Below, piece by piece: positions 1-64,000 of a DNA stretch of 64,000 nt. The first letter of the stretch is position 1. Every line of letters starts with the position of its first letter. The notes below the pieces were generated by a model. The model ran no database searches and was not told where the DNA came from. It saw nothing but the letters and a program-made list of their open reading frames with translations. This stretch comes from Sphaerolaimus hirsutus (lineage: Eukaryota; Nematoda; Chromadorea; Monhysterida; Sphaerolaimidae): contig OZ038451.1 of NCBI GenBank assembly GCA_964036195.1, forward strand, positions 20,162,318-20,226,317, given 5' to 3'. The position numbers were made by a program, and so were the translations under genes.

Positions 1-491
1 GGAGCCATGGGATAGCATTATAAGTGGTGATTTGTGTCAAAAATATCCATTTTTCGTCGACATATTGTTCGTATATCGCCTTATAGTCGAATGTTTGTGA
101 CTTCAGGTAAAGTTTGGCACGGAATGGTGAGCAAACAAGGTTATAAAAGGAGGTTGTTACTTTGGGAGTGAAGTTACACACTATGGAGGTACATGGAAGC
201 ACATTACCTCAATATTATATATTACAGCAACATATGTCGGCTTATTCACCCATGGTAGCACATAGAAATGGATGTTTTGATACTAAAAATGCAACAAAAC
301 CAATGAAAACAAACACCAATGTCAATTTGTGTGTGAAATTGCGCGCTTGCGCGCAAAAATTTTGCAAAATACCTAGTGCTTAGTACTAAAAATTTCAGCC
401 GATGTTTTTAAAAAAAAAAAACATTTCAGACGTCATAAAAAACGTTGTTTTTTTAAAAAAAACGTTTTAAAAAAAACATCGGCCAACCCTA
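1..491 (-). mobile_element. hAT-like element, right end only (cut by window start)
   Basis: This is the same core as 4283-4966 (for example catgggatagcattataag and the CGCGCTTGCGCGC palindrome), ending in AAACG/TTTTTAAAA arms and the terminus CCAACCCTA at 483-491. The left terminus lies outside the window, so no target-site duplication can be tested. Confidence 0.8.
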
Positions 492-529
492 GTTACAACC
501 AACAATTTGTACTGGGATTACCAAAAAAT

Positions 530-608
530 CTGGCGAAATAATAACCACCCTCGAAATTCTCACTCCGGAAAAATAAACCCCCCTGGGGGTATTTCGAGGT
601 AATACGGT
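530..608. repeat. Fragment of ACCGTATTACCTCGAA-type inverted-repeat element
   Basis: This stretch contains CCCTCGAAATT, a CCCCCCTGGGGG centre and the terminus GAGGTAATACGGT, as in the complete copies at 30842-31283 and 23991-24831. Only the right end is well preserved. Confidence 0.55.
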
Positions 609-634
609 AACTTTTTGTATAAAGAGATGTGAAT

Positions 635-1043
635 CAGGGGTCTCCTAGGGGGGGGCTGGGGGGCCAAATCCGCCAGCTATCATCTATCCCCGAGGCAAAA
701 TGTTTGCCTATCTATCCCCAAAATGGGCCAGCAAACTACCTATCCAGGGCGATTTTTGAGAAATTTTGCCCTAATTTTCGCTCAAAATCATTAGTTCTCA
801 TACATTTTATAGTTTTTCACCTTCAAAATCGCGGCTTTCGCCTATACACATGTTTATATACCTATTTTTAGCTACTTGTTTTTAGCGATTTTTTCCCGTT
901 TCTGCCTTCTATGCACTGAAAAGCCTATATATTTTGCCCCCGCGAGCCCCCCCCCCAGAAAAATGTTCAGCTATCTATCCCTCCGGAGGAGCGATTTGCT
1001 TTCTATCCAGCCCCCCGCGAGGGCCAAAATCTTGGGACCACTG
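635..1043. mobile_element. hAT-like MITE with CTATCTATCC arms, TSD ATGTGAAT
   Basis: Termini CAGGGGTCTCC and GGACCACTG are flanked by exact 8-bp copies of ATGTGAAT (627-634 and 1044-1051). Arms are G-rich/C-rich with repeated CTATCTATCC words. Related partial sequences occur at 35625-36003 in the CD2BP2-like gene and at 5815-5885 in the IWS1-like gene. Confidence 0.85.
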
Positions 1044-1307
1044 ATGTGAATGGAAACGTCCAGCGTGCATTTTATGCCACCTCTATGACATGTGTTTTTA
1101 TCCAAGTATGTGCTGTTCTTTTAAAGTAGATTTTCTCTCACTACACTTTTCGAATCATCTTCACTACTTATCAATACATTTGCAGTCTATATAAAACGCA
1201 AAAAAATTATTCCACTAATTTAGACCTTTTTGTAGAAAATAGAGTAAACCCCTGAATCCTTAAGTCCTACGAAAACCATAAAAATCCTCCCCAGCTAAAA
1301 TACCCAC

Positions 1308-4300
1308 CTAACTCTCTGCCGCTTGGCGGGCAAATATTTCTGGTCCCTTTCTTCCCTGTCCTCCCGGCTTAATTGCTCATCCAGATTGAATATTGGCCGC
1401 GCCCACTCGCCTTAGAATGGTGGGATTTATTTTATCATTTTCAATACTTGGGTTCAATAATTCAAGAATTTTAAAAACCGATAATTTTTAACTCGCTTAA
1501 AAAATACAGAGTACAAAGTACAAAGAATGAAAACTATTCCAATCAAACTATCATCACAATCGTCTACAAATTGGGTCGTAATAGCAGTAAATACCGTTCA
1601 AACCACACAGTCACTTCAATAATCACCCAAAACCCACCAATAATCCGCTTAGCCCTGAGTCTATTCTGACTGTCCTCCCTGGGATGTTTGCTCAACAGCA
1701 TCACCGCCTTGCCGATGCCGGAGTTCTTGATCATGCCAGACTCCACGCGCGGCATGGTTTCTAACAATTTGAGCAATTCTACCCGGATTTCCAAGGCGGG
1801 CAGACCCTTGTCGGGTAGGGGCGCAAGCCATTCCTGGGGTGTGGCGAATTTTTCTTTTTTTTGACATGTTTGAGATTGGTCGATATTTCACTATTTATCG
1901 AAGTGATTGCATTTATGATTTATCCGACTTTATAGAGACACTCGGCGGAACGCAAAGTACGCGTAGAATTTTACCATTTTTAATGAATAAACTCTTTGAT
2001 AAACTCTCGTGATAAATTTCGTAATAAATTATTACATAGTAAATATTCAATATGTTGATGGAAAAAAGTATGGTTCATTATTCAGATGGGTTATGGTAGG
2101 TTTCCAACCTAAGTCTGACGTCCGCCGAGTAGGGTTGGCAAGCGATTTTTTTTATAAAAAATCCGATTTTTGTTAAAAAATCGCAGCCCCTGCACCGATT
2201 TTTTTTTAATCGCTGGGGAAAAAATTTGGTACTCATGCACTAGGTAAAATGCAAAAAAATTGCACGCGTGCGTGCAGTTTCTTGTAAGCAATCCACCATT
2301 TTCTTTTTTCATGGTTTTTACAAGCAATTTGGTGGTGTGGCACCCATTTCTGTGTGCTTTTAAGCATGTAAGGTTGGCTGTGAATCATTGGGGGAAGTAT
2401 ACATTGTTTTGCTATGTGTTTTCATTTCAAATATGAATGGAAATGCATCCATGTTCACTTCAAAAATGATTTTTGTTGTGTTTTCAGCAAAAACATGCAA
2501 TTTCTGCAAACAAAATTGCAAATGGTCGATGAAATTTTATTCACGCAGCAAATACAACAATTTTATTACTTTTAAACTTCAAAATAACTGACTTTGAAGC
2601 TTTTCCACAGCTCTACAGTACTTATATTACCACAGAAAGAATAACTGTGCACTGCCTATCAATTTACATGTCTTTTATCATTTCAGAGGCGATTTTCGAG
2701 AGAAATGGGACTAATTTTGACCCCAGCTATTTTTTTAAAATCGATTTTTATCGATCGGGGTCGTTAAAAAATCGATTTTTTTCAACCCTACCGCCGAGTA
2801 TACTCATCTTGCTTAAAAATCGCTTGCTTTCGGCGGTAAATGGTTTTAATTAGACCCCTTTCACACCTTTCTTTTCTGTGACGACTCCGACAACATGAAA
2901 AAGTTCAGTAATTCAAGTAAAAAGATCCATATTCATCACATAAAATGGCCAAGTATGCTCCAGTCACTTTACAGCCTGCACGTGTGGTTCCCGCTGGAAG
3001 AGTGCCAACGAGTTTTTTACGCATGCAATTTTCATAAAAAGTTGGAAAAAGTTATCTTTGTTATAACGCTATACATTAACTTTTCACAACAATAATTTTT
3101 CTCATCTTTTTATAGAAAAATTTCATGTTTTATCATCATTGGCACGCTTCCAACGCGAGAAATAAATGAGTGCGAAGGCAGAGTATCATGTACGCCGAGT
3201 ATATACATACCACCTAAGCGTATATGTATGTCAAATTGCAGATGAATCGTGCTCGTCGTTTAAGAGTTACAGATGTTTGAAAAAAATTGCTCTGTCGGAG
3301 CCCGACAGATGGTGACAATGGCAAAAATTTTCAAACGTCTATAACTCTTGAACGTCACAGAAAAAAAGTGTGAAAGGGACCTTACAGAGTCAATTCAAAG
3401 GCAATGAATCAAAAATACCACTAACGCTGAATGAACTCAGTAACCCGTTGTCCAGGAGAATTTCTCCGAGATCAGCTCTGGAAATTTGAAGACCAACTTA
3501 ACTCAAGAAATCAAATTTTAACCGGGTCAAAAAATAACGCACTTTTTACACGTGGCCACAACTACTGGCAACATTTTCCTTTTGTTAAGCGCTGGTCTAC
3601 GCTCTTCATTGCACCTTCGATCCTCCTGGAAATGTGCCAAATTACAAAATTTGGTATAAAAATCAAATTCAACTAATAAAAAATTTACTTGAGCTGAGTT
3701 ATGTTTTTGAAGAAAAAAATAGGAATTTGCAAGTCCATTAGAAGTCACTATTCACATCAGGGGTCTTGTACATTTGGACCCGTGCGGGGGTTCAACACAT
3801 TTTGGCTAAAAAAATATAACTGTAATCAAAAAGATCTCACGCACATTAAAAATCACTTCATCCGACAATGAAATCTCAAAAAAAAATCCACACAAAAATC
3901 CAAACAGAGCAAACTTGCGCGGCAGCTCTCATTTTACTAATAAATTCTTGCACAAGCCCATCAGAGTCATTTATCAAATCGACCGTTCCCCCTCCGGTGC
4001 GTTTGCGTCTTTTGGCACCGCGTTTTCGTTCTTCAGCTTTTTCCCGCATTATCACATCGAAATCATACTCGCTGAAAAATGGACGGGAAAAGCAATGGGG
4101 TTGGTATATTGAAGAGTTTCATCCCAAAAGTGCACAAGTCCACGATTTTACGGGGTAACATGTTTAATGTCTAGGCGAAAAAATTTTGACAAAAATACAA
4201 TACGTACATGGGTGCTCGATCCATCAAGGGGCTGGTCTCTCGCTCAGATGAATCCTGTAAAAGAAAAATAGGCTAATATGGTTAGGGTTGGAAAAAAAAC

Positions 4301-7300
4301 GTTTTTTTTTAACTCGATGTTTTTGTTTTTTTAAAAACGTTTTTTTTTAATAAAAAACGTTTTTTTTTAAAAGCTCCCAGATATGACCTTGTGTCAACAT
4401 ATATAGGTATATCAGACAGTGGCAATACTCTGTGATGTTATATATGACCATATAATGTCTGTGGAGCCATGGGATAGCATTATAAGTGGTGATTTGTGTC
4501 AAAAATATCCATTTTTCGTCGACATATCGTTCGTATATCGCCTTATAGTCGAATGTTCGTGACTTCAGGTAAAGTTTGGCACGGAATAGTGATCAAACAA
4601 GGTTATAAAACGAGGTTGTTACTTTGGGAGTGAAATTACACACTGTGGAGGTACATGGAAGCACATTACCTCAATATTATATACTACAGCAACATACGAC
4701 GGCTTATTAACCCATGGTAGCACATAGAAATGGATACTTTGATACTAAAAATGCCACAAAACCAATCAAAACAACCACCAATGTCAATTTGTGTGTGAAA
4801 TTGCGCGCTTGCACGCAAAAATTTTGCAAAATACCCAGTGCTTAGTACTAAAAATTTCAGTCGATGTTTTTTTTTAAAAAAAAACATTTCGGACGTCATG
4901 TTTTTTAAAAAAAAAAACGTTTTTTTTAAATAAAAAACGTTTTAAAAAAAACATCGGCCAACCCTAAATATGGTACTAAACACTAGCGATGAAAAAACGT
5001 GCTTAACGACCCCGTTTAAAAAAAAATACTTCACACTTTTTTATAGATAAAACGGGTTTTTTAAAAAGCTCCCATATATCGTCAACATAAATATTGGTGT
5101 AAAAATCAGACAGTCAGTAGTATTTATTTTGCGATGTTACATATATTTAGGAGGTCCGGAGTTCCGCGATTGGACAAGTGACAAGAAAATTGGTAAGTGA
5201 CAAGTATATAAATTACTGAATGAAAATACTCGTCATTTAATGTCTACTTGTCATTTGACCCTGGCTTTATTTGACTTGCGTATTTGGCACCTGAATTCAC
5301 TTACAATAATTCATGCTGTTACTACAAAAAAAACATTATGAATAGAAAAGTGTTCAAAAGGTGAATGGAGCCAGAATGCGCCTACACAGTAGTTTTCAAA
5401 TGGAATTTTTAAAACTCATAAATAAGCCTTCAACGCGTTTCAGTTTACTATAATGAGTTAAATTTATATTCGTCAACTGTATTTGACAGGCACCTCATTC
5501 AGGTAACCCGAATGCGTTCAAAACTATATTATGAGTTTCAAAATTTCTATTGAAAACTAGTGAGTGTGGGCCCAATGGCAAATAAACCAACTCGTTTTGG
5601 CTCACTGCCAGCAGCCCCCTCATTCCCCTCCTTATCTTCATTCTCGTTATCAGACTCTCCAAAAATGTCCGCAATCAAATTATCGACATCTTCCGGTGGT
5701 GCAGTTGCTTCAGTTTCTTCAGTTGCTTTTTCTGCGGCGTTTTCTGGCGCATTTTCAGCGTCCGAATCTGAAATTTAATGGGTGGTGACAAAAGATGGTC
5801 ATTTTGAGGCACGGGTCTCTAGGATTTTTGACACTCGCGGAGGCTGGATATAAAGCGAATCGCCTCCGGAAGGATAGATAGTTTATAAATAGATAATAAT
5901 TTATTATAGATAATAATTTATTTTGGGGGGGGGGTTGGGGGCTGATGGGGGACCTAGTGCCAGTTCCGCAATGAGAAGTGAAATGATAAAGGCGAAGTAA
6001 AAGCGCAAAGGCGAAGTGAAATGGCGAAAGCGAAGAGAAATTACTGTTTCTTTTTATTCTTTTATATCGCTTTTGCCAATAAACATGCCGTTTCACTTCG
6101 CCTTTGCGCTTTTACTTCGCCTTTGCCATTTCACTTCTCATTGCGGAACTGGCACTAGGTCCCCCATCAGCCCCCAACCCCTCCCCCCAATCATAAATTT
6201 TGCCCCTGGTTCCGCAAATTGAGAAGTGATAAGTAAAATGGCAAATGCGAAGTGAATTGCAAAGAAAATTGGCAAAAGCGAAGTGAAAAGGCAAGTCGCA
6301 AACCCAACTCTTTGACAGAAGCAAAGAGGAGAAAACCGAGAAAACCAACAAAACCCACCATCTTCATTGAGCATCGATTCCACAGCTTCCGGTGGCAAGG
6401 CGTCATCGCTATCGCTGCCACTTTTTTCATCCCCACTTCCCCCTTTTTCGGGATCTGGCGAATCGGGTTGTTCCAAATCCGGTTCCGGTGATTTTGGAGC
6501 GTCCAAATTGTTTTTCCGATGTGACTGTTCCGTCTCCGATTCCGGTTCTGGTGACTGTGGCTGTCCCGAATCCGGTTCCGGTGATCCTGGCTGTCCCGAT
6601 ACCGGTTCCGGTGATCTTGGATGCCCCGATTCCGGTTCCGGTGACTGCGGCTGTTCCGATACCGGTTCTGGTGACTGCGGCTGTTCGGATTCCGGTTCCG
6701 GTGATCTCGGTTGCGCTGATTCTGGTCCCGGTGTCTAGGGATGGAAAAAATTCAATTTTTTGCTTTATTTGTAAACATGCCTACCGTGGAAAATCGGATA
6801 CCATAACAAGTGGTGATCAGAAATTGGTGCCAAAAATGTCAACTATTCACGTTCGCATAAATCGAAACTAGCACACAATATTAGTATATATGTGAAATAG
6901 AGCTTGCGCAAGAAAATTGAATTTATTTATTTATTATTTATTTATTTTTTATACCTCATTGTTTAAAAAAAGTACCGGTGATTGCGGTTGCGCAGACTCC
7001 GGTTCCGGTGATTGTGGCAGTCCCGATTCCGGTTCCGGTGACTGCGGCTGCCCCAATCCAGCGTCGGGGGATTGGGGTTCGCTGATTTCCGTAGGATTGT
7101 CGAACGATAAGTCTGCCCCAGCGCTGAAAGTGTCGATAGGGGAAGTTATATAAGAACAGGGGGTTTGGTATGTGGGTGGGGGTTACCATCCCCAAACGAT
7201 CCAGCTATTTAGATATCTATCACTGTGCCGCTCAGCTAGATATCTATCACAGGTGCCGCTCAGCTACCTATATATCCCAATGCGAAAAAATTTTCCTGCC

Positions 7301-9709: not shown

Positions 9710-11075
9710 AAACGGCGCCATTTTTATGGAGTGGCGCCATGGACTCGGAAACGGCGCCATTTTTATGGAGAGGCGCCATGGACTTGGAAATGGCGCCATT
9801 TTTATGGAGTGGCGCCGTGGACTCGGAAATGGCGCCATTTTTATGGAGTGGCGCCGTGGACTCGGAAACGGCGCCATTTTTATGGAGTGGCGCCATGGAC
9901 TCGGAAACGGCGCCATTTTTATGGAGTGGCGCCATGGACTCGAAAATGGCGCCATTTTTATGGAGTGGCGCCATGGACTCGGAAATGGCGCCATTTTTAT
10001 GGAGTGGCGCCGTGGACTCGAAAATGGCGCCATTTTTATGGAGTGGCGCCGTGGACTCGGAAACGGCGCCATTATTATGGAGTGGCGCCATGGACTTGGA
10101 AACGGCACCATTTTTATGGAGTGGCGCCATGGACTCGGAAACGGCGCCATATTTATGGAGTGGAGCCATGGACTCAGAAATGGCGCCATTTTTATGGAGT
10201 GGCGCCGTGGACTCGGAAACGGCGCCATTATTATGGAGTGGCGCCATGGACTCGGAAACGGCGCCATTTTTATGGAGTGGCGCCATGGACTCAGAAACGG
10301 CGCCAATTTTATGGAGTGGCGCCATGGACTCGGAAATGGCGCCATTTTTATGGAGTGGCGCCATGGACTCGGAAATGGCGCCATTTTTATGGAGTGGCGC
10401 CATGGACTTGGAAACGGCGCCATTTTTATGGAGTGGCGCCATGGACTCGGAAACGGCGCCATTTTTATGGAGTGGCGCCATGGACTCGGAAACGGCGCCA
10501 TTTTTATGGAGAGGCGCCATGGACTCGGAAATGGCGCCATTTTTATGGAGTGGCGCCATGGACTCTGAAACGGCGCCATTTTTATGGAGTGGCGCCATGG
10601 ACTCGGAAACGGCGCCAATTTTATGGAGTGGCGCCATGGACTCGGAAACGGCGCCATTTTTATGGAGTGGCGCCGTGGACTCGAAAATGGCGCCATTTTT
10701 ATGGAGTGGCGCCGTGGACTCGGAAACTGCGCCATTTTTATGGAATGGCACCATGGACTTGGAAACTGCACCATTTTTATGGAGTGGCGCCATGGACTCG
10801 GAAATGGCGCCATTTTTATGGAGTGGCGCCATGGACTCCAAAATGGCACCATTTTTATGGAGTGGCGCCATGGACTCGGAAATGGCGCCATTTTTATGGA
10901 GTGGCGCCATGGACTCGGAAATGGCGCCATTTTTAAGGAATGGCACCATGGACTTGGAAACTGCACCATTTTTATGGAGTGGCACCATGGACTCCAACAT
11001 GGCACCATTTTTATGGAATGGCGCCATGGACTCCAAAATGGCACCATTTTTATGGAGTGGTGCCATAGACTTTTT
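9710..11075 (+). repeat. 39-bp tandem array, block 1 (~35 units)
   Basis: The unit is two half-repeats, GGCGCCATTTTTATGGAGT (19) and GGCGCCATGGACTCGGAAAY (20). The 39-bp period is a multiple of three and mostly lacks stops, so long open frames exist on both strands. These are consequences of the repeat, not genes. Confidence 0.97.
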
Positions 11076-11590
11076 TCAAATTTTTTAAAGTTTTTTTCAA
11101 TATTTGTTTCAAAAAAATAATAAATATTTTTTCAAATTTTTTTCAAATTTTTTTTAAAAGTTTTTTTTTCAAATTTTTTTCATCTTTTTTTCTATTTTTT
11201 TTTCTAAATTTTTATAACACATTGTTTTCAAATTTTTTCCCGCCATGGACTCCAAAATGGCGCCATTTTTAAGCAGTGGCGCCACAAACTCCAAAATGGT
11301 GCCATTTTTATGGAATGGCACCATGGACTTGAAAATGACACCATTTTTATGGAATGGTGCCATTGACTTGAAAACTGCACCATTTTTAGGGGGGGGCACC
11401 AGACTCCAAAATAGCACCATTTTTATGGAGTGGTGCCAGACTTTTTCAATTTTTTTCAAATTTTTTTACATTTTTAAAAAAATTTTTTTACCATTTTTTC
11501 AAATTTTTTTTAAATTTTTTTTCCAGACTTTTTTCAAATTTTTTTTCTCTATTTTTTTTCTCTATTTTTTCCAAAAAATTTTCTACCATG
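11076..11590. repeat. AT-rich spacer, copy 1, with a few degenerate array units
   Basis: Runs of TTTTTTCAAATTTTTT surround a short set of GGCGCC/GGTGCC units (11243-11440). The segment is nearly identical to 13153-13670, so array plus spacer was duplicated as a unit. Confidence 0.85.
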
Positions 11591-13152
11591 GACTCCAAAA
11601 TGGCGCCATTTTTATGCAGTGGCGCCATGGACTCCAAAATGGCACCTTGGACTCCAAAATGGCCCCATGGACTCCAAAATGGCGCCATTTTTATGGAATG
11701 GCGCTATGGACTTGGAAACGGCGCCATTTTTATGGAGTGGCGCCATGGACTCGGAAACGGCACCATTTTTATGGAGTGGCGCCATGGACTCGGAAACGGC
11801 GCCATTTTTATGGAGAGGCGCCATGGACTTGGAAATGGCGCCATTTTTATGGAGTGGCGCCATGGACTCTGAAACGGCGCCATTTTTATGGAGTGGCGCC
11901 ATGGACTCGGAAACGGCGCCAATTTTATGGAGTGGCGCCATGGACTCGGAAATGGCGCCATTTTTATGGAGTGGCGCCATGAACTCGGAAATGGCGCCAT
12001 TTTTATGGAGTGGCGCCATGGACTCGAAAATGGCGCCATTTTTATGGAGTGGTGCCATGGACTCGGAAATGGCGCCATTTTTATGGAGTGGTGCCGTGGA
12101 CTCGAAAATGGCGCCATTTTTATGGAGTGGCGCCGTGGACTCGGAAACGGCGCCATTATTATGGAGTGGCGCCATGGACTCGGAAACGGCGCCATTTTTA
12201 TGGAGTGGCGCCATGGAGTCGGAAACGGCACCAATTTTATGGAGTGGCGCCATGGACTCGGAAATGGCGCCATTTTTATGGAGTGGCGCCATGGACTCGG
12301 AAATGGCGCCATTTTTATGGAATGGCGCCATGGACTCGGAAACGGCGCCATTTTTATGGAATGGCGCCATGGACTCGGAAACGGCGCCATTTTTATGGAG
12401 TGGCGCCATGGACTCGGAAACGGCGCCATTTTTATGGAGTGGCGCCATGGACTTGGAAACGGCGCCATTTTTATGGAGTGGCGCCATGGACTCGAAAATG
12501 GCGCCATTTTTATGGAGTGGTGCCATGGACTCGGAAATGGCGCCATTTTTATGGAGTGGCGCCATGGACTCGAAAATGGCGCCATTTTTATGGAGTGGCG
12601 CCGTGGACTCGGAAACGGCGCCATTATTATGGAGTGACGCCATGGACTCGGAAACGGCGCCATTTTTATGGAGTGGCGCCATGGAGTCAAAAACGGCGCC
12701 ATTTTTATGCAGTGGCGCCATGGACTCGGAAACGGCGCCATTTTTATGCAGTGGCGCCATGGACTCGGAAACGGCGCCATTTTTATGGAATGGCGCCATG
12801 GACTCGGAAACGGCGCCATTTTTATGGAATGGCACCATGGACTCGGAAACGGCGCCATTTTTATGGAGTGGCGCCATGGACTCGGAAACGGCGCCATTTT
12901 TATGGAGTGGCGCCATGGACTTGGAAACGGCGCCATTTTTATGGAGTGGCGCCATGGACTCGGAAACGGCGCCATTTTTATGGAGTGGCGCCATGGACTC
13001 GGAAACGGCGCCATTTTTATGGAGAGGCGCCATGGACTTGGAAATGGCGCCATTTTTATGGAGTGGCGCCATGGACTCTGAAACGGCGCCATTTTTATGG
13101 AGTGGCGCCATGGACTCGGAAACGGCGCCAATTTTATGGAGTGGTGCCATAG
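11588..13152 (+). repeat. 39-bp tandem array, block 2 (~40 units)
   Basis: This is the same 39-bp unit as block 1. It begins with degenerate ATGGACTCCAAAATGGC units and then homogeneous GGCGCC units. It ends in the GGTGCCATAGACTTTTTTCA junction also seen at the end of block 1. Confidence 0.97.
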
Positions 13153-13830
13153 ACTTTTTTCAAATTTTTTAAAGTTTTTTTCAATATTTGTTTCAAAAAA
13201 ATAATAAATATTTTTTCAAATTTTTTTCAAATTTTTTTTAAAAGTTTTTTTTTCAAATTTTTTTCATCTTTTTTTCTATTTTTTTTTCTAAATTTTTATA
13301 ACACATTGTTTTCAAATTTTTTCCCGCCATGGACTCCAAAATGGCGCCATTTTTAAGCAGTGGCGCCACAAACTCCAAAATGGTGCCATTTTTATGGAAT
13401 GGCACCATGGACTTGAAAATGACACCATTTTTATGGAATGGTGCCATTGACTTGAAAACTGCGCCATTTTTAGGGGGGGCACCAGACTCCAAAATAGCAC
13501 CATTTTTATGGAGTGGTGCCAGACTTTTTCAATTTTTTTCAAATTTTTTTACATTTTTTTTAAAAATTTTTTTACCATTTTTTCAAATTTTTTTTAAATT
13601 TTTTTTCCAGACTTTTTTCAAATTTTTTTTCTCTATTTTTTTTCTCTATTTTTTCCAAAAAAATTTCTACCATGGACTCCAAAATGGCGCCATTTTTATG
13701 CAGTGGCGCCATGGACTCCAAAATGGCACCTTGGACACCAAAATGGCCCCATGGACTCCAAAATGGCGCCATTTTTATGGAATGGCGCTATGGCCTTGAA
13801 AATGGTGCCACTTTTATGGAGATTTACATG
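13153..13830. repeat. AT-rich spacer, copy 2
   Basis: This near-identical copy of 11076-11590 differs by small indels in T and G runs and carries the same short degenerate GGCGCC units. It ends in a few array units before unique-looking sequence begins. Confidence 0.85.
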
Positions 13831-15240: not shown

Positions 15241-15263
15241 ATATGAGAATCAAAATGAACTCC

Positions 15264-15500
15264 CTAAAAATGGCGCCATTTTCAAGTTCATGGCACCATT
15301 CCATAAAAATGGTGCAGTTTCCAAGTCCATGGCGCCACTCTATGAAAATGGCACAGTTTCCAAATCCATGGCATTATTCCATCAAAATGGCGCCAGTTTG
15401 GAGTCCATGGCGCCACTCCAGAAAAATGGCACCACTTTCAAGTCCATGGTGCCATTCCATAAAAATGGCACAATTTTGGAGTCCATGGCAGAAAAAAACT
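15264..15500 (-). repeat. Degenerate 39-bp units, reverse orientation (~6 units)
   Basis: Units read ATGGCGCCACTCCATAAAAAT on the plus strand, the reverse complement of blocks 1 and 2, with many substitutions. An A-rich spacer (15500-15870) follows and mirrors the T-rich spacer on the left. Confidence 0.85.
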
Positions 15501-15869
15501 TAAAATCTGAAGAAAAAAATTATTTTTTTTTAAATCTGAAAAAATTTGAAAAAAATTTGAAAAAATTTGTAAAAAATTAAAAAAATATGTAATAAAATTT
15601 AGAAAAATTGAGGAATAAAAAAATAAATTTTTTTATAAAATGTAAAAAAAAATTGTAAAAAATTTTAAAAAAAATAGATTAAAAAAATATAAAAAAGTAA
15701 TAATAAAAATGTAAAAAAAATGAAAAAATTTTTTTTTAAAAATTGTAACTAAAAATTTGAAGAAAAAAAAAAAATAATAATAAAAATTATAAAAAAATTT
15801 TAAAAAATTTGTTTTAAAAATTTTTAAAAAATTTTTTTTAGAAATTGAAAAAAAACTTTTAAAAAGACT

Positions 15870-17175
15870 ATGGCGCCGCTTTCATAAAAATCGTACAGTT
15901 TCCAAGTCCATGGCGCCACTCCATAAAAATGGCATCATTTTGGAGTCCATGGTGCCACTCCATAAAAATGGCGCCATTTTCGAGTCCATGGCGCCACTCC
16001 ATAAAAATGGCGCCATTTTTGAGTTCATGGTGCCACTCCATAAAAATGGCGCAGTTTCCAAGGCCATGGCACCACTCCATAAAAATGGTGCAGTTTCCAA
16101 GTCCATGGCACCACTCCATAAAAATGGCGCAGTTTCCAAGTCCATGGCGCCACTCCAAAAAATGGCGCAATTTTCGAGTTCATGGCGCCACTCCATAAAA
16201 ATGGCGCAGTTTCCAAGTCCATGACGCCACTCCATAAAAATGGCGCCATTTTGGAGTCCATGGCGCCACTCCATAAAAATGGCGCCATTTTCGAGTCCAT
16301 GGCGCCACTCCATAAAAATGGCGCCGTTTCCTAGTCCGTGGCGCCACTCCATAAAAATGGCACCGTTTCCTAGTCCGTGGCGCCACTCCATAAAAATGGC
16401 GCCATTTCCTAGTCCATGGCGCCACTCCATAAAAATGGCGCCATTTCCTAGTCCATGGCACCACTCCATAAAAATGGCGCCATTTCCTAGTCCATGGCGC
16501 CACTCCATAAAAATGGCGCCATTTCCTAGTCCATGGCGCCACTCCATAAAAATGGCGCCATTTCCTAGTCCGTGGCGCCACTCCATAAAAATGGCGCCAT
16601 TTCCTAGTCCATGGCGCCACTCCATAAAAATGGCGCCGTTTCCTAGTCCATGGCGCCACTCCATAAAAATGGCACCGTTTCCTAGTCCGTGGCGCCACTC
16701 CATAAAAATGGCGCCGTTTCCTAGTCCATGGCGCCACTTTATAAAAATGGCGCCGTTTCCTAGTCTGTGGCGCCACTCCATAAAAATGGCGCCGTTTCCT
16801 AGTCCATGGCGCCACTCCATAAAAATGGCGCCATTTTCGAGTCCATGGCGCCACTCCATAAAAATGGCGCCGTTTCCTAGTCCATGGCGCCACTCCATAA
16901 AAATGGCGCCGTTTCCTAGTCCGTGGCGCCACTCCATAAAAATGGCACCGTTTCCTAGTCCATGGCGCCACTCCATAAAAATGGCGCCATTTCCGAATCC
17001 ATGGCGCCACTCCATAAAAATGGCGCCATTTCCTAGTCCGTGGCGCCACTCCATAAAAATGGCGCCATTTCCTAGTCCATGGCGCCACTCCATAAAAATG
17101 GCGCCGTTTCCTAGTCCATGGCGCCACTCCATAAAAATGGCGCCATTTCCTAGTCCGTGGCGCCACTCCATAAGA
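15870..17175 (-). repeat. 39-bp tandem array, block 3, reverse orientation (~33 units)
   Basis: The most common unit is GGCGCCATTTCCTAGTCCAT followed by GGCGCCACTCCATAAAAAT. It is inverted relative to blocks 1 and 2 and differs from them by a CTAG in place of CGAG, which marks separate homogenisation of the two arms. Confidence 0.96.
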
Positions 17176-19375: not shown

Positions 19376-20636
19376 CTCCCTACAGATTTGTAGGGTAGGG
19401 CGTACACCCGATAGATTTTTTAAAGTTCAACCGCATCGACGCACATGCACCAGAGCAAGGTGGTTTGTAAAATATACGAAACCATCCCTTAAGGTCGCCG
19501 ATATTGCAATATGATGTATATCGCTTCAATTTTGGCCTGGAAATCACTATTGTCATTTCTTGGCCGTCTGCCAATTCGCTTTTTATTTTATTTTATCGGG
19601 CGGGTTTATCGCATAAGTTGCGCTTTTGTGTAGTCAGGTGGTCACTTTTTTAGTGTTCACTGTCTGCAACCGAAACCATGAGGGCAGCGACAAGAAAGAA
19701 ATGCATGCACGAGCGTACAAAAGCGCGACTTATGCGAGTAACCTGCCCGACAAAATAAAATAAAAATTTAATTGGCAGACGGCCAAGAAATGACGATATA
19801 GTGATTTCCAGGCCAAAATTGAAGCGATATACGTCATATTCCAATATCAGCGACCTTAAGGGATGGTTTCGTATATTTTACAAACCGCCTTGCTTTCGGT
19901 GCATGTGCGTCAATGCAGCTGAACTTTAAAAAATCTATCAGGCATAGGGTGTCAAATTTCCATTTTCCGTTTCCGCAGGCAAATTTTTTCCGTTTTCCGT
20001 TCCGTTTTCCGGCTGCTGAAATTATTTTTCCGTTTTCCGTTCCGTTTTCCAGCCATTTTTTTTACCATTTCCGTTTTTCCGGCTCATTTTCCGTTTTCCG
20101 GCTAAATTTTCAGTTTTTCCGCCTTTTTTCCGTTTTCTGTCTCAATTTCTAGTTTTTCCACCTTTTTTCCATTTTCCACCTCAGTTTTCCATTTTTCCAC
20201 CTCATTTTACCTTTTTGTGGCTCAACTTTCTGTTTTCTGATCAGCCAAACTGGTAAAAATTCATGCAGATTGTCAATGATGTAAAAATTTTTCCGTTTCC
20301 AGCAAAATTACTGCAAATTTTTCCCACTTCCAGCAAAATTTCTGCAAATTTTATCCATTTTCTGGCAAAATTTCAGCAAGTTTTTCTATTTCCGAGCAAA
20401 TTTGATTTTTCCGTTTCCGTTTTTCCGGCCTCTTTTTCCGTTTTCCGGCCGCTGAAATTTTTTTTTCCGTTTCCGTTTCCGTTTTCCGCCAAGTGCAAAT
20501 TTTTTTCCGTTTTCCGTTCCGTTTTCCGGCCTCTGAAAAAAATTTTCCAATTCCGTTTTCCGTAAAAAAAATTTTTTGACACCCTAATCGGGCATATGCC
20601 CTACAAATCTGTAGGGAGAATTAAATCTGGCCCCAG
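19365..20636. repeat. Palindromic element with CCCTACAGATTTGTAGGG ends, host of a nested hAT
   Basis: The left end ATTTAATTCTCCCTACAGAT is mirrored by ATCTGTAGGGAGAATTAAAT at the right. Internal segments 19480-19620 and 19740-19880 are also mutually inverted. The element 19945-20586 is inserted near the right end. Confidence 0.7.
19945..20586. mobile_element. hAT-like MITE with TTTTCCGTTTCCG arms, TSD ATCRGGCA
   Basis: Termini TAGGGTGTCAAATTT and TTTTTTGACACCCTA are flanked by ATCAGGCA (19937-19944) and ATCGGGCA (20587-20594), one mismatch. Nearly the whole element is TTTTCCG words; at the right end they are not clearly inverted. Confidence 0.8.
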
Positions 20637-32943: not shown

Positions 32944-34697
32944 ATGTCCAAGCGCGTTCGGTTCGCAGAATCCACGGACGATGGCACAGTGCCAAAACAG
33001 CCGAAATTACAACAAGAACAGAATGGAAGAGAGGGGGAACAAGTTTATGATTTACCAGAACAGGAAGAGAATGAAGTAGATGATGCTGACCAGTTTGGCG
33101 TGAGTTTGACGGGTTGCCAAGTTTTTCTTATCGGCGTATTCTGAAAATGTTTTTTTGTTAGATGTCAATTTGGGATTAAACAAACTTTGTATTCGAGTTT
33201 CGAATGTGTATTACGACTTTTCGGCGAAATGGCATTATGAAGCAGTGCAGCTTTTTCTTCATCTGGGGCCAGTTCCGCAAATTGAGAAGTAAACAGCGTC
33301 GTGAAATGGCAGAAGCGAAGTGAATTGAGAAGTAAAACAGCAAAAGCGAAATGAATTGAAAAGTAAAACGCAAAAGCGAATAAAATTGAGAAGTAAAATG
33401 GCAAAAGCGAAGAGAAATTACTTTTTCTTTTTATATTGTATTCTTCACTTCTGCCATTTTACTTCGCTTTTGCAATTTTACTTCTCACTTCTTAATTTGC
33501 GGAACTGGCACCAGGTCATGGTTTTTGGCTCTGTCTGCATGCTAAATTGCGTGCTTTATTGTCAATTCACTTCGCTTTTCACTATGGTTAACAAACGTGT
33601 TGAAATTAAAAGCCCATTTTTAACCATTCAAAATTTCAACCCTACTCTTCTCACACAATTTTTACACCAATTTTTTCTTTTTCACCCAGGAAGAACCAGA
33701 AGAATTGGTGGGCGAACGAAAAGAGTACGCAAGCAAACATACGCTCGATTCTGATGAGGAAATTGATGAGAAACATAAGAAACTCGATGTGAAAAAAGTT
33801 GATTTTGGTTTGTTTTGGGGCAAAGTTTTGTCTGAGATTTACTAAAATAGTAAATGGGCCCGGGAGCATTGGTGGGCGTTTTTTTGTAAAATTGAAACTT
33901 GCAATGGTGGAAGGTGGGATTCGAAGCCGCCTAACAGGAATTGGCTCTGATTTAATTTCTGATTGCAAGCATTGATTTTTTCGAGGTAATTATGTTTATG
34001 TCAATATTTGAAAAAATATTCAGTATTCGATATTCAATATGATATATCGTCCCAACCCTGATTGACTATACATGTGCTTTTTCAACATGTAAAATGCGTG
34101 TTTACTGAACCCCCATCATGTTCGCGTTCACTTTTCACCTCCCAAAAACATTTCCACCCATAACCCCCAATCAACCCCCTTCACCCAGGCCAAGAAAAAC
34201 CGACCATAGAATTCGATGGCGAGACGAAAATTACTCCATTCAACATGGACGATGAGTTAGAAGAGGGTCATTTCGACGCGATGGGCAACTACGTGTACGA
34301 CAAGCCCGACGAGATGTTGAAGGACGCCTGGCTGGATAATATCGATTGGGGCAGGGTGGGTTGGGGGGTTGTTTGAGGGTTGCTCTAGATTTTGTGTCGT
34401 TTTGGGTTCACGTTGGCCCTGCACAGGTTTGAACGTATTTGAGTTTACCAAAATGATGTATGTTAACTACTGTTGGTAGTCATTCCGGTAAACTTGAACT
34501 GATTTAATGAGTTTTCCAAAAAATGTCAAATTTCAGTGGAAAAATGGTGCGTAATGAAAATTAAGATGAAGAATATGACTGTAGAAATATATACACATGT
34601 AATTTAGTTATCATTGCGTCCTGTTATTTTTCCGTGTTTTTTTTCTTCATTTTACATGGTGAAGAGTAACTTTGTTTGTCTTATGCTTGAACTAGAC

Positions 34698-34736
<39 letters not shown>

Positions 34737-42948: not shown

Positions 42949-45392
42949 ATGGACACACTAATTTCAATAATTTTCCTCACAATTTTTATCACTCTGCTCA
43001 CACTTTTAACGTATAAACTACGCAAAAAGTGGAATTTTCAATTTCAACGTAAAAAATGTTACGCCACGCCAGGTGCCAATTCCGCGAGTAGACAAGGGAT
43101 AGGAAAAGAGAAGTGATGCGAGAAGTTATAAGTGGTGGGTAGGTTAAGTGACAAGTAAACTTGTAAATGACACGTATTTGGAAGATGAAACTGTTATAAG
43201 TCATGTTTACCTGACAATTTGTGGCCACACTAATGCCGAAATTTTGGTAACTGGTAAATCTGTTTTGGGCACATTTGAGTTAACCTGAATTATTTATTTT
43301 TGATCTCAGTAAACAGTATTATAGTTGACGGACTTGACATTCCTGCAAACCATAATCCACCCAAAGTTGGTTTATTTTCTGAATTTGCGGCTGTAAACTA
43401 GTGAGCGTTGGGGCTATTATGCTGCGATTACAGCTCGGGCATAAAATTGACCAGCGTAAGATTGATTTTTGGGCGTAAAATTAATTACAGGTGAATGGAT
43501 AAAGATATTGCATTGTAATTTCAGTCAAAGAAAGCACACATGCAGATGTTGCTTGTGTCCAAAGCTCATCAGTTTATTTTAATTGCACTAGAAGTTATGA
43601 ATTTTGGCACAAATTTTTTTCCATTTTACGCCACTTACAGCGCATGATTGAAAAAATTGTGCTAAAATTCATAACTCCCAGTACGATTAAAATAAACTCA
43701 TGAGCTTTGGACACAAGAAACGTCTGCATTCAAGCTTTCTTTGACTGAAATAACAATGTCATATCTTTATCCATTCATCTGTAATTAATTTTACGCCCAA
43801 AATCAATTTTATGCCCGGTCAATTTTACGCCCGAGCTGTAATCGCAGCATAATTGACACATTTATGATACACGATATAACTTACCACTTGACTGACTACG
43901 ATATAACTTACCACCATTTGTGTTAGCCTGAATTATTTATTTTTGATCTCAGTAAACAGTATTATAGTTGATGGACTTGACATTCCTGCAAACCATAATC
44001 CACCCAAAGTTGGTTTATTTTCTGAATTTGCGGCTGTAAACTAGTAAGCGTTGGGGCTATTATGCTGTGATTACAGCTCGGGCGTAAAATTGACCAGCGT
44101 AAAATTGATTTTTGGGCATAAAATTAATTACAGGTGAATGGATAAAAATATTGCATTGTAATTTCAGTCAAAGAAAGCGTACATGCAGATGTTGCTTGTG
44201 TCCAAAGCTCATCAGTTTATTTTAATTGCACTAGAAGTTATGAATTTTGGCGCAAATTTTTTCAATTTTACGCCCTAATTTTACGCCACTTACAGCGCAT
44301 GATTGAAAAAATTGTGCTAAAATTCATAACTCCCAGTACGATTAAAATAAACTCATGAGCTTTGGACACAAGAAATGTCTGCATTTAAGCTTTCTTTGAC
44401 TGAAATAACAATGTCATATCTTTATCCATTCATCTGTAATTAATTTTATGCCCAAAATCAATTTTATGCCCGGTCAATTTTACTCCCGAGCTGTAATCGC
44501 ATCATTATTGACACATTTATGACACACGATATAACTTACCACTTGACTTATCACTTGTATTTTCACTTGTCCACTCGCGGAATTTGCCCCAGTGTGTATT
44601 GTACTTGGATCTGGCGGCCACACTACGGAAATGCTCAGATGTGTGCAAGTTCTGGGTGAACAGTATGAACAAAGGTAAGTTCGAGCACTGGGTGAAATAT
44701 GGACATTTCTTGTTTCTAATTGAGGGTTGTTGTATTTAGAACTTTTAAAATTAGCTGAAAGTTATCACGAAAAATATTTTTCTAAAAAAATATTTTTTTC
44801 GCGCTAGCTGTAACTAGAACTTCAGATATTGTGTTAAATATCACATTACCCATGCATAATCTACATCGAACTATCAAAACTGGCACCGTTCCAACTCTAA
44901 TTAGTAGCCCCCTCATCCAGACACTACATAATCGCCAACACAGACAGCATGAGTGCAAAACGAGTATACGCTATAGAAGCCACTCGCACAGCCGCTCTGA
45001 AAGTTGATGACAAAAACTGCGGCCACTTTAAAGTGCACTTCATACCCCGGAGTCGTGAAGTGCGCCAAAGTTACGCCACATCAATTTACACCACTCTAAG
45101 GTCCATTTTCGCCTGCGCACCGCTAATGTGGAATATTCGGCCCAAATTAGTGTTGTGCAATGGGCCGGGAACTTGTGTTCCGATCGTTTTCGTCGCGAAA
45201 TTGATCGTCGATTTCTTTTCGTTTTGGGGTGACGGTTGTAAAGTTGTATTTATCGAGAGCGTTTGTAGGGTGAAAAGTTTGTCATTGACCGGCAGAATTT
45301 TGTATCATTTGCGTTTGGCTGATACGGTGGTCGTTCAGTGGGCGGAGTTAGGAGAGATTTATACACGCAGCGTTTACTTGGGTAGATTGTAA
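42949..45392 (+). CDS. ALG14: ALG14, membrane anchor subunit of UDP-GlcNAc transferase
   Basis: ALG14 anchors the catalytic subunit ALG13 to the cytosolic face of the ER, where the pair adds the second GlcNAc to dolichol-PP-GlcNAc for N-glycosylation. Three exons: 42949-43072, 44593-44674 and 44921-45392, total 678 nt, or 225 residues (human 216). Residues 4-24 are a hydrophobic anchor (LISIIFLTIFITLLTLLTY). Then come VLGSGGHTTEML, YEQRHYIIANTDSMSA, FHIPRSREV-like FIPRSREVRQSY, LVLCNGPGTCVPI, VVFIESVCRV, VQWAEL and the C-terminal SVYLGRL, all hallmarks of the family. The exon 3 acceptor is CATCCAG at 44920; the alternative AG at 44906 breaks the frame. Intron 1 is almost exactly a transposon (see the repeat entry at 43070-44592). 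Confidence 0.93.
43070..44592 (+). mobile_element. MITE (CAGGTGCCAATTCCGCGAG ends) that forms ALG14 intron 1
   Basis: The element starts CAGGTGCCAATTCCGCGAG and ends CTCGCGGAATTTGCCCCAG, followed inward by GACAAG/CTTGTC words. Intron 1 runs from 43073 to 44592, so the splice donor (CAG|GTGCC) lies in the left terminus and the acceptor (CCCCAG) in the right terminus. Relatives elsewhere have CAGGGGCC, which lacks the GT. The interior holds a 643-bp tandem duplication. Confidence 0.7.
43279..44560. repeat. Tandem duplication (period ~643 bp) of a palindromic unit
   Basis: Copy 1 (from 43279) and copy 2 (from 43922) share CCTGAATTATTTATTTTTGA and all following landmarks. Each copy is itself an inverted repeat: GATTACAGCTCGGGC at 43429 is mirrored by GCCCGAGCTGTAATC at 43829, and likewise in copy 2. 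It lies within ALG14 intron 1. Confidence 0.9.
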
Positions 45393-45753: not shown

Positions 45754-46615
45754 CAGAGTTGTTAAAAGGTACGTACGTTTACTCGAAAAATACGCGTACG
45801 CGTGTACGCGGTAAATACATTTACATATACTTTTTTTTTAAATACTGTACGCACTCGTACGCGTACATTTTCAAAGCATACGCATACATAAAATGTATTT
45901 CAGAAAATTCAATGTGGGGGATATTTATAAAGTGACTACAGTGCTATGTATTTACAGACGTGTTTCCGTTGAATATAAAAGATACGCGGGGGCAGCGCGC
46001 TTTAAAAATAAAAAAACGCAACCAAATCAAAATGGCTGCAGAGACAATCGAAGTGGAAACGAGTGGCGAGAGCGACGATGGAATGGATGATTCATCCGGC
46101 ACCGCTGAAATCCCAGCTGGGGATGAACTGGGTTGGATGAAGCTGGGCACTGGTTTGTGTTGGGAAAAGGTTGCACCTCGCTCCCGAAACATTAGAGAAG
46201 GAGCTTTTCATTCGCTTCAATTATAAGTGTTTCTAGTGATTTACCAGATTTGGATGAGTTAGGTTATATTTTTGTTGCCGCTATTCTTGCTATTTTTATC
46301 CCCTACAATAAAGAGACCCTGAAAACTATTTTTTCTATCATTTTCTTAAACAAAAACATATGCTGTGTGGTACACGCATGAAAAAGTGCCCACTTTACAC
46401 CCACTTGAAATAATATTGACGCCTCACGAAAGGTGTAGCGTCAGGAATGACGAAAAGTGGTCGTTTCTACACTCGCAAGAAAAGTACCCAAATTTACGTG
46501 TACGTACGAGTAAAAAAAAGTATTTTACGTTTTCGATACTTTGTGGTGAGTAAAAAAAAAAATACTTACGTTTACATATACTTTTGAAAAAAGTTCAGTA
46601 ATTCTAACAACTCTG
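45754..46615. mobile_element. hAT-like element with GTACGC/TTTACG arms, TSD CTGGAAGY
   Basis: Ends CAGAGTTGTTAAAAGG and CTAACAACTCTG are flanked by CTGGAAGC and CTGGAAGT. Arms are GTACGCGTACGCG and TTACGTTTACG words. It carries the 64-residue ORF and AATAAA described separately. It lies between ALG14 and UPB1. Confidence 0.82.
46032..46226 (+). CDS. Intronless 64-residue acidic ORF carried inside a hAT-like element
   Basis: ATG at 46032 (context caaaATGGCTGC) opens a 64-codon frame reading MAAETIEVETSGESDDGMDD and later DELGWMKLGTGLCW, ending at TAA. A canonical AATAAA lies about 80 bp downstream (46307-46312). The ORF sits between the inverted GTACGC-rich arms of the element at 45754-46615, and the related short element at 24284-24571 has no such insert. 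The Asp/Ser/Glu-rich start followed by a Trp-containing segment suggests a captured piece of a cellular gene or retrocopy. I recognise no family. It may be non-coding by now. Confidence 0.35.
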   Translation: MAAETIEVETSGESDDGMDDSSGTAEIPAGDELGWMKLGTGLCWEKVAPRSRNIREGAFHSLQL

Positions 46616-61809: not shown

Positions 61810-61938
61810 TAGTGATGTGAAAGCGCCACGGCGCTTTTGGCGCTATGTTTTGCCCAGCGCCAGACACAAAATGTCTGGTGCTGGCGCTAGGCGCAGTTTT
61901 GCTCTGGCGCCAAAGTCGTGGCGCTTTTCACATCACTA
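61810..61938. mobile_element. 129-bp hAT-like MITE made of GGCGCC/AAGCGCC words, TSD CTCCGGGG
   Basis: Ends TAGTGATGTGAAAGCGCC and GGCGCTTTTCACATCACTA are flanked by exact CTCCGGGG (61802-61809, 61939-61946). It has the same termini as 41305-42211 but almost no core. Confidence 0.93.
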
Positions 61939-62385: not shown

Positions 62386-62879
62386 CCGCCCTCCTGATAG
62401 GCTGTGAAAGCAAAAGCTGGTTTTACAAAAGCAAATGAACCAGCTAACAGATAGCTAAACGAACAGGCACGTTGCACAGACACAAAATTTGTGACCGGTA
62501 AGTAACCTATCACGATATTGCAAAGTTATTCCGATTTTTGCACAGTTGTTGTCGGAGGCTTTTATGTTACAAAAAAATTACCATGAACGCTTCAGCTTTT
62601 GACAGTTTCATTCAGTTCAACGCAAATACACTAAACTCTCACTCGAAAAATTAAATCATAAATATCTTATTTGCAAAACAAAAACTAGTATCGAGTAAAG
62701 CCGTAAGAATAAACTCAAATCAACAATAAACTATCAGAAACTAGACACACAATTTATCTAGAAAAACTATACCTTGAAAGTCCTTAGGCACCCTAAAACA
62801 AAACATTCGCTATGGCAGTGGCACAATGATAAATACGCTTTATATAAGCTATGTGCACTTACAATAATATTTACTGGAA

Positions 62880-63015
62880 CCACGGACCAGTCCCGCACCT
62901 TGTCAATGTCCAGTAGAAAAAAACAGTTCACATAGATTTGGAAAATATCATGTAAATCGAAGTGCACGTAAAATTAGAATTGGGTTTTTAACAGGGGCAC
63001 TTCACGGGACTGGCT
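62880..63015. repeat. Short MITE with CCAGTCCCGC ends
   Basis: GGACCAGTCCCGCACCTTG is loosely mirrored by CACTTCACGGGACTGGCTCC. Terminal words place it with 50350-50754. Confidence 0.5.
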
Positions 63016-63199
63016 CCGGGGTAAACTCTGTCAGTTTCGGTGCATTGAAGTTTGCAACGATGTAGCATATTGATGGATATTAATTGGTAGGATATTTACA
63101 TCGATATCGAAAACCAAAAATTTCAAAACAACATCGTTCCAACTCAAATCTACCTGAATCACCAATCCCAATCGACAATATAATCAAATGGCCACCTAT

Positions 63200-63389
63200 T
63201 CAATCAGACGGGAAATCCGAAGCTCCGCCCACTTTACCCCCGGCCAGTTCATTGTCGCCGCGGTTGTACACAACCACATGAACTCCGTCATTTTTGGTGC
63301 AGAAAATACGCTCTTTGCACTCCATTTCCGCATTTTCGTCCACTTTTGTCGAAACACCCATCGCCTGCCGCACGTTCATCGCACCGTGG
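63200..63389 (-). CDS. Candidate terminal exon of an unidentified gene entering from the right edge
   Basis: The minus strand has an acceptor ending in TTTTGCAG at 63390, followed by 62 open codons and a TGA at 63202-63200. The reading starts HGAMNVRQAMGVSTKVDEN, continues through KERIFCTKNDGVHVVVYN and ends GGASDFPSD. Amino-acid composition and codon use look like a real exon (mixed charged residues, no repeat), but I do not recognise the protein. Upstream exons would lie beyond 64000, because 63445-64000 is transposon. It could also be a decayed coding fragment. Confidence 0.45.
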
Positions 63390-63444
63390 CTGCAAAATGT
63401 ATACCAGATTTTACATTTCAGAAATCCGGGGAGGGGGTTGTGTT

Positions 63445-64000
63445 TAGGGTTGGCCGATGTTTTTTTTAAACGTTTTTTTTTTTAAACGTTTTTTTTTTTT
63501 AAAACATGACGTCCGAAATGTTTTTTTTTTTTAAAAAACATCGGCCAAATTTTTTAGTACTAAGCACTAGGTATTTTGCAAAATTTTTGCGCGCATGCGC
63601 GCAATTTCACACACAAATTGACATTGGTGGTTGTTTTCATTGGTTTTGTTGCATTTTTAGTATCAAAACATCCATTTCTATGTGCTACCATGGGTGAATA
63701 AGCCGACATATGTTGCTGTAATATATACTATTGAGGTAATGTGCTTCCATGTACCTCCACAGTGTGTAACTTCACTCCCAAAGTAACAACCTCCTTTTAT
63801 AACCTTGTTTGATCACCATTCCGTGCCAAACTTTACCTGAAGTCACGAACATTCGACTATAAGGCGATATACGAACGATATGTTGACGAAAAATGGATAT
63901 TTTTGACACAAATCACCACTTATAATGCTATCCCATGGCTCCACAGCCATTATATGGTCATATTTAACATCACAGAGTATTGCCAGTGTCTGATATACCT
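63445..64000. mobile_element. hAT-like element, left end (cut by window end)
   Basis: It starts TAGGGTTGGCCGATG with AAACGTTTTTTTTT arms. The core is the reverse complement of 1-380 and of the 4283-4966 core. The right terminus lies outside the window. Confidence 0.8.

Follow-up and report, generated by a model that had tools for sequence, protein, structure and literature searches.

Families of hAT-type miniature inverted-repeat transposable elements (MITEs) in the genome of the nematode Sphaerolaimus hirsutus carry arms in which one short word recurs many times, and related elements keep the scaffold of the arm (that is, the ends, the spacers and the positions of the sites) while the word itself is swapped at all or nearly all of these sites. 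We describe these elements in a window of 64,000 nucleotides (contig OZ038451.1, positions 20,162,318 to 20,226,317; G000:C2:20162318-20226317 in our numbering) and at further loci (L numbers below) of the same assembly (348 Mb, 762 contigs). The words are probably binding sites of the cognate hAT transposases, rewritten as the specificity of these proteins changed. We consider the chances about even for the fuller proposal, in which such a recognition code was rewritten repeatedly, in steps of one or two letters at all or nearly all sites of an unchanged scaffold, on three and probably four scaffolds, so that the resulting lineages became mutually private.

Words are exchanged at fixed places on a retained scaffold

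In each arm, end sequence and spacers form a fixed scaffold, and a single short, usually CpG-containing word recurs in it many times. The arms are word-rich inverted repeats that are partly tandem, and in the aligned scaffolds most words stand among non-repeated spacers; the words are CGGGAT, CGATAT, CGATTT, CGCTTT, CGTTTT, CGGAAA, AACGTA, AGCGTA and GCGCC. The scaffold with CAGAGTTG ends is represented in the window by two features (here and below, a strand is given where one was assigned, and duplications are target-site duplications):

37341–37480, + strand, one end of a CAGAGTTG-scaffold element, word AGTGTA, 8 copies
45754–46615, CAGAGTTG-ended element, mixed words GCGTAC, CGTACG and ACGTAA, duplication with one mismatch

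The words AACGTA, AGCGTA and AGTGTA occupy identical places along ~140 bp of the CAGAGTTG arm. Comparison of one representative per word (L012, L014 and the arm at 37341 in the window) gave the AC-to-GC swap at 6/6 left-end and 8/8 right-end sites and the GC-to-GT swap at 7/7 sites, and between AC and GT five of six sites were swapped and one was of another kind. Outside the words, mismatches in the four comparisons numbered 15/134, 12/141, 6/133 and 17/127 (identity 87–95%), and the hypergeometric P values, with columns treated as independent, ranged from 5.8e-6 to 9.6e-9. Ten of the 22 listed CAGAGTTG ends were used; the rest belong to other subfamilies, are overlapping loci, or are wordless or unrelated.

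Across the genome, a three-site CAGAGTTG pattern that admits any purine–pyrimidine word occurs at 3,382 ends, 2,916 of which (86%) are pure for one word, compared with ~11% expected if the three sites were independent; 1,077 of the pure ends carry AC, 911 GC and 928 GT, with reversed-pattern controls of 0 in each count. As the three counted sites form a tandem run, where slippage could help, it is the dispersed sites of the swap test that carry the argument. Re-expansion of whole arrays on this scaffold is ruled out, given that spacers and site positions are kept.

A second scaffold, TAGGGTTCRAACG..GACTTTTCG, bears either CGGGAT or CGATAT:

21763–22371, + strand, hAT-type MITE on the TAGGGTTCRAACG..GACTTTTCG scaffold, word CGGGAT, 43 copies, exact duplication GCGGCACC
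23092–23688, − strand, second copy of the CGGGAT family in opposite orientation, 41 copies of the word, exact duplication ATCCTGAT
40750–41183, − strand, third copy of the CGGGAT family, shortened, 23 copies of the word, exact duplication GACAGCTG
26422–27161, hAT-type MITE on the TAGGGTTCRAACG..GACTTTTCG scaffold, word CGATAT, 26 copies, exact duplication ATTATATA, nested

The three CGGGAT elements in the window contain no CGATAT and the element at 26422–27161 contains no CGGGAT. In a catalogue of 53 rows for the TAGGGTT scaffold (one element is present in two rows), 25 CGGGAT-dominant rows hold 787 CGGGAT sites and at most 5 CGATAT sites (1 shown), and 27 CGATAT-dominant rows hold 975 CGATAT and 20 CGGGAT sites, all 20 from a single row, where a CGATAT element lies within a CGGGAT element. 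At one locus (L028:2878-3016, 8 sites) the scaffold carries a third word, CGGGAC. The TAGGGTTCRAACG scaffold with a five-letter slot occurs at 3,657 ends genome-wide, with GGATT in all but 7 among the matches listed, and with a non-G word at 1,304 ends, with ATAT in all but 5 among the matches listed; the control was 0 in both searches. Hybrid ends in which GGAT is followed by ATAT number 0 genome-wide, the reverse hybrid (ATAT, then GGAT) not having been searched. CGGGAT and CGATAT elements share a scaffold at one end, to judge from the aligned sequences: in the consensus D ends the word trios stand at matching places, with a score that beats 999 of 1,000 block shuffles.

Some elements or ends with the word CGATAT have another terminus (TAGGGTTGGGACG and similar versus TAGGGTTCAAACG), at L057:385-1188 and at 34060 and 60113 in the window, which indicates that the ends, too, can change while the word stays.

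The third case is a family of elements with a common core:

2130–2790, hAT-type MITE of the core family, word CGATTT (ATCGAT), 9 copies, exact duplication CCGCCGAG
4283–4966, hAT-type MITE of the core family, word CGTTTT (AACGTT), 11 copies, exact duplication AATATGGT
37630–38337, MITE of the core family, word CGCTTT (AGCGCT), 9 copies, clear ends, duplication imperfect and offset
26257–26422, + strand, left remnant of an older core-family element, broken by 26422–27161
27162–27442, + strand, right remnant of the same older element, arm word TGATTT, right end TAGTGATGG
1–491, + strand, right part of a copy of the 4283 family, cut by the window start
63445–64000, − strand, copy of the 4283 family, cut by the window end

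Counts of CGATTT, CGCTTT and CGTTTT are 9/0/0 in 2130–2790, 0/9/1 in 37630–38337 and 0/0/11 in 4283–4966. The last two elements align over their full length, both arms included, with 519 of 660 aligned columns identical; 2130–2790 is tied to the family more weakly (BLAST matches of 62–64% over 184–246 columns). More generally, N in the [CT]GNTTT sites is A, C or T depending on the element. Among 14 representatives, 84 of 93 CGNTTT/TGNTTT sites match the majority letter of their own element, a figure for which 20,000 shuffles reach at most 66 (duplicates that were omitted are six further 4283-type copies, L002 and L004–L008, together with L090 and the latter half of L091; the table further excludes L007 (384-1299), with one countable site, and L066, with none); in the three complete core elements in the window, 33 of 36 sites agree with the majority and shuffles reach at most 25. 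By eye, the second left-arm site reads TTTTTTAACGRCYCCG plus the word in 2130 and 37630 and TTAACGACCCCG plus the word at 4984, with looser forms in further copies of the family; the duplication of 37630–38337, likewise judged by eye, reads TGCAGTAT / TGCAGTAA. In the older interrupted element, four of the five counted sites read TGATTT. All 40 genome copies of 4283–4966 that were scored, from 2,678 first-look candidates, are at least 95% identical, and the 40 scored copies of 37630–38337 are 83–100% identical; the families are thus not local to the window.

Elements with TAGTGATG ends suggest a fourth, weaker case, in which the ends were seen to match over their first bases:

41305–42211, hAT-type MITE, ends TAGTGATG, word GGCGCC, exact duplication CTTCACAC
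61810–61938, short hAT-type MITE, ends TAGTGATG, word GCGCC, exact duplication CTCCGGGG

Thirteen of 25 such ends were used (the others belong to other subfamilies, come from overlapping loci, lack words or are unrelated); nine of those used hold 139 GCGCC and 4 GCACC, and the other four 45 GCACC and 0 GCGCC.

These alignments bear on several claims of a preliminary description of the window, which was made from its letters alone. It had proposed that arms are replaced by the expansion of a new word, or that the subterminal region is converted into a low-complexity palindrome. Because spacers and site positions are retained in the aligned arms while the letters of the words change, the arm was not re-grown, and neither proposal is supported. 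It had also allowed that the words might be microsatellites present in single copies. They occur on a fixed scaffold hundreds to thousands of times, and plain microsatellites are ruled out by these fixed places in high-copy families. Its grouping of 21763, 23092 and 40750 as alike in core and arms was correct, these being three copies of one CGGGAT family; the core that it saw in common between 4283–4966 and 37630–38337 is borne out by the alignment, although the arms, said to differ, align as well and it is their words that differ. The stretch at 26240–27400, taken for one core-sharing element, does contain pieces of an older core-family element but comprises two elements. A single ATATCG-armed element there is ruled out, given that 26422–27161 has its own exact duplication and lies nested inside the older one. 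An AAGTGTA element was recovered as one end (37341–37480, with its eight copies), no second end being found in the window.

Identity and number of the elements

A mechanical scan of the window for inverted termini starting TAG or CAG, from which a 39-bp array at 9.6–17.3 kb was left out, found 8-bp duplications as 8 exact pairs and as 11 pairs with at most one mismatch. At lengths of 5, 6, 7, 9, 10, 11 and 12 bp the same scan found no exact duplication, and at 4 bp it found one. Ten of the 11 pairs were kept as complete insertions, and the pair 25587–26190 was discarded as chance (ends CAGCGTT, word-free). Short terminal inverted repeats of the TAG/CAG type are present in 10/10 kept elements, partly by construction, since the scan demanded a YAG start. 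Window and loci taken together, 73 distinct elements have exact 8-bp duplications, compared with 1, 4, 1, 0, 0 and 0 at lengths of 5, 6, 7, 9, 10 and 11 bp, in a set of loci that is enriched for the families under study, their choice being biased toward families that were searched for. Ac/Ds elements likewise make 8-bp duplications, and fish and other animal hAT MITEs and the sea-urchin TU foldback elements combine such duplications with arms of a short repeated word.

The elements in the window are 129–907 bp long with inverted-repeat ends, and three of the end patterns occur thousands of times in the genome. Each element holds ~9 to 45 copies of its word, in both orientations and in both arms, and the words are exclusive or nearly so within each element, with 45754–46615 as the exception. 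Lone ends bearing words lie at 27442, 34060, 37341 and 60113. The hAT-like ends and 8-bp target duplications of the preliminary description are thus upheld; its count of at least 18 insertions comes down to ten complete ones in the window plus partial copies, and its element-specific arm words hold as near-exclusive words in the counted elements, the mixed element at 45754–46615 apart. No TTCGAA element, which it had also listed, came up, and no search aimed at TTCGAA was made. An Rfam search gave no match at the gathering threshold.

One further window element is of the word class in which transposase remains are most often found:

19945–20586, hAT-type element, ends TAGGGTGTCAA, word CGGAAA (TTTCCG), 28 copies, duplication with one mismatch

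Its genome relatives carry a hAT dimerisation domain between their arms. The genome contains 28 matches to this domain (PF05699, the hAT dimerisation region), and in 12 of these 28 loci it is enclosed by paired ends, an 8-bp duplication (10 exact and 2 with one mismatch, at L013 and L019) and matching arms:

L009, L010, L013, L014, L028–L030, L033 and L036 (9 loci), TTTCCG arms enclosing PF05699
L012 and L015 (2 loci), AACGTA arms enclosing PF05699
L019 (1 locus), CGATAT arms enclosing PF05699

Word counts alone place arms on both sides of the domain at 11 TTTCCG loci (adding L023 and L027), 2 AACGTA loci and 3 CGATAT loci (L016, L018 and L019); L017 has CGATAT arms on one side of the domain only, and L024 has a chance-like pair of ends without words. 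The translated domains are 58–100% identical within word classes and 32–55% identical between them. Pfam confirmed PF05699 in five of six open frames tested and found none in L027. Some relatives of 1–2 kb contain a transposase fragment. Of the autonomous hAT with matching ends whose search was suggested at the outset, the loci yielded fragments, with the domain between TTTCCG, AACGTA and CGATAT arms; no full-length transposase was recovered. On the basis of the ends, the 8-bp duplications and the domain between matching arms, the window elements are short non-autonomous hAT-type MITEs.

At L011:1501-2134, ~430 bp from a TAGTGATG/GCGCC end, lies a hAT dimerisation domain with 44 of 67 residues identical to that of L012 (AACGTA class); it may represent the transposase lineage of the TAGTGATG/GCGCC class.

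A proposed rewriting of the recognition code

We infer transposase binding, a change of specificity, selection through mobilisation and the direction of change as follows. A transposase lineage would shift its specificity by one or two letters, copies with sites that fit the new specificity would be mobilised more, and over repeated rounds of amplification nearly every site would come to hold the new word, whereas letters of the scaffold that go unread by the enzyme would remain as they were. If a protein reads the words, it would follow that words change more than spacers do, whichever the orientation or the arm, and that the sites agree. Among the ideas of the preliminary description, arms that act as transposase-binding arrays with a fast-changing code fit best, in keeping with the 12 of 28 loci where matching arms enclose the domain and with the published motif preferences of hAT DNA-binding domains (PMC8097297).

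Several observations weigh against this proposal. The hypergeometric and shuffle tests ignore the relatedness of copies. On the CAGAGTTG scaffold, 466 of the 3,382 ends are mixed or contain AT (these may be intermediates or mere decay), the element at 45754–46615 mixes its words (CGTACG 4, GCGTAC 6, ACGTAA 3 and CGTAAA 2), and the end at L030:3035-3132 has one AGTGTA and two AGCGTA and may be either an intermediate or a copy in decay. The interiors of the CAGAGTTG word classes, past the arm, look unrelated to one another, which means that recombination has occurred too. The scaffold match between CGGGAT and CGATAT elements reaches only 1 in 1,000 at the D end, and at the P end, with the terminal 13 bp set aside, it is not significant, since 141 of 1,000 block shuffles score at least as high. 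On the protein side, zf-BED (PF02892) has 8 genome matches and none in the 28 domain loci, a search that divergent or intron-split domains could escape. Among the 28 PF05699 loci, no domain lies between CGGGAT, core-family, AGCGTA or AGTGTA arms, so that for no swapped word pair are both transposases in hand.

Six of the eight zf-BED matches lie on the same strand in one 22.6-kb cluster (G000:C1:7466186-7488779), perhaps of domesticated or duplicated BED genes.

Alternative explanations

Neutral homogenisation is unlikely in our view; under it, a word variant that arose by chance would spread through the array by slippage, by unequal exchange or by gene conversion between the inverted arms, and recognition would play no part. 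The arms are indeed inverted repeats able to convert each other, array copy number varies between elements, and some sites directly follow one another in tandem (three consecutive AGTGTA, for example, or the CAGAGTTG three-site pattern). Such processes should drag neighbouring spacer letters along, yet the swapped unit is one or two letters, the words stand mostly among different spacers and in both orientations, and the spacers keep their own identity at each site; left and right ends, moreover, still differ from each other.

That the word classes are separate old hAT families (that is, independent lineages, each with its own binding repeats, whose ends converged on a hAT terminus and in which no word was ever replaced) is quite improbable, and for the CAGAGTTG scaffold it is already largely refuted: site spacers, orientation and position are common to the word classes over ~140 bp. 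The core and both arms that 4283–4966 and 37630–38337 have in common, and a 22-bp scaffold found around a free word thousands of times with a control of 0, speak against it as well. It draws on the facts that the word does mark the subfamily, that the GGAT-then-ATAT hybrid is absent, that the transposase domains of three classes differ, that the likeness of the P-end scaffold is not significant and that TAGTGATG ends were seen to match at their first bases only. Old separate families were named at the outset as an outcome that would overturn the first idea; the part of it that stands is the word as a mark of subfamily, and the part that does not is separate descent, subfamilies with different words descending from one scaffold.

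We regard as very improbable, taken by itself, an escape from repression in which the word is the target of small RNAs or of a DNA-binding protein of the host, perhaps a domesticated hAT domain, and the elements evade them by changing it. Animals do have domesticated BED/hAT proteins that bind DNA with word-like specificity (PMC8097297), and six zf-BED matches are clustered at C1:7.466-7.489 Mb. Evasion would account for the loss of a word, not for the uniform adoption of one new word: nearly all sites gain one identical word, so something must read it. Escape is nonetheless compatible with changing transposase specificity and does not exclude it.

Decay of CpG, by which methylation and deamination turn CG words into TG or CA so that words of that kind are merely aged, has hardly any claim as a general account: AGCGTA to AGTGTA and CGATTT to TGATTT are CG-to-TG changes, GCGCC to GCACC is CG to CA, and decay may account for some of the TG words in old copies of the core family, but no CpG is lost in the changes from AACGTA to AGCGTA, from CGGGAT to CGATAT or from CGATTT through CGCTTT to CGTTTT, and in 928 CAGAGTTG ends all three sites carry GT. 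As a source of AGTGTA it is ruled out by strand direction in one arm, since decay should hit either strand and the AGTGTA arm in the window has 8 AGTGTA and 0 AGCATA; a second arm counted in this way (L031) has only 2 AGTGTA and no AGCATA.

Other features of the window and loci

A further family, at L004:544-997, L043:293-1632, L059:703-1832, L086:158-656 and L087:115-641, has ends of the CAGGGGTCTC type and 8-bp duplications without mismatch, and no word arrays were seen in it. In the window, tandem arrays of 39-bp, GGCGCC-rich units lie at 9710–13155 and 15261–17173, in opposite orientations around a 1.4-kb centre, and the pair resembles a 7.5-kb foldback structure. Among the end matches listed, none that would make this array (9.7–17.2 kb) a giant relative with hAT ends appeared at a rough look, duplications not having been tested systematically. 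The stretches 43272–43893 and 43915–44548 form a direct duplication of ~630 bp (95% identical), each half of which is itself an inverted repeat, giving four 210-bp arms that are 83–85% complementary. An oppositely oriented repeat pair with CAGGGACGTAYSCAGGATTTTTGAG ends and C/G homopolymers lies at 34734–35168 and 36716–37160.

Relation to known systems

Word-specific subterminal repeats of hAT elements, and MITEs with conserved interiors but differing ends, are already known. Maize Ac/Ds resembles the elements described here in its hAT ends, in a short word repeated near both ends (the subterminal hexamer AAACGG, of which three copies are required) and in non-autonomous elements with unrelated interiors (PMC3260210); it is unlike them in that one word serves the whole family and the available portion of that account contains no series of all-site word exchanges, whereas here the word differs between relatives. 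In Hermes, whose BED domain binds subterminal repeats (PMC10368747), and in Herves, whose transposase binds CG/AATTCAT (PMC3143072), the protein likewise recognizes short repeated motifs within the ends, and the Herves motif contains CG, as do most words here. As far as the accessible parts of these two accounts go, however, there are few sites per end, and specificity differs between distant elements rather than letter by letter on one scaffold. The BED and Hermes domains of hAT proteins bind diverse CGG-, CGC- or AT-rich motifs that are matched in their own subterminal regions, and among these the CGGBP-like hAT domains (Yellan et al. 2021, PMC8097297) have CGG-, GCGC- and AT-rich specificities matched in cognate subterminal regions; that work, in the sections at hand, treats the protein side only, whereas here the DNA side is described, with sites rewritten in concert. 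In the coral CMITEs (PMC2872659), interiors are more conserved between families than terminal repeats, somewhat like the core family here, but they are piggyBac-like, and neither word arrays nor concerted swaps are described in the portion of the source seen.

The literature searched (titles and the openings of abstracts, a range that leaves out Repbase Reports) contained no account of a scaffold that is kept while its words are replaced in concert.

To our knowledge it is an open question how the specificity of a transposase can shift together with that of its many scattered sites, with mobility kept. A single genome here gives a matched series, with one letter per step and about a thousand pure ends per step on the CAGAGTTG scaffold, and such a series makes the path readable from sequence. 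If the proposed rewriting is correct, it would explain how MITE families that do not cross-react arise from one ancestor, and it would provide a table of sites and words for decoding the DNA-binding domains of hAT proteins, which animals have domesticated (PMC8097297).

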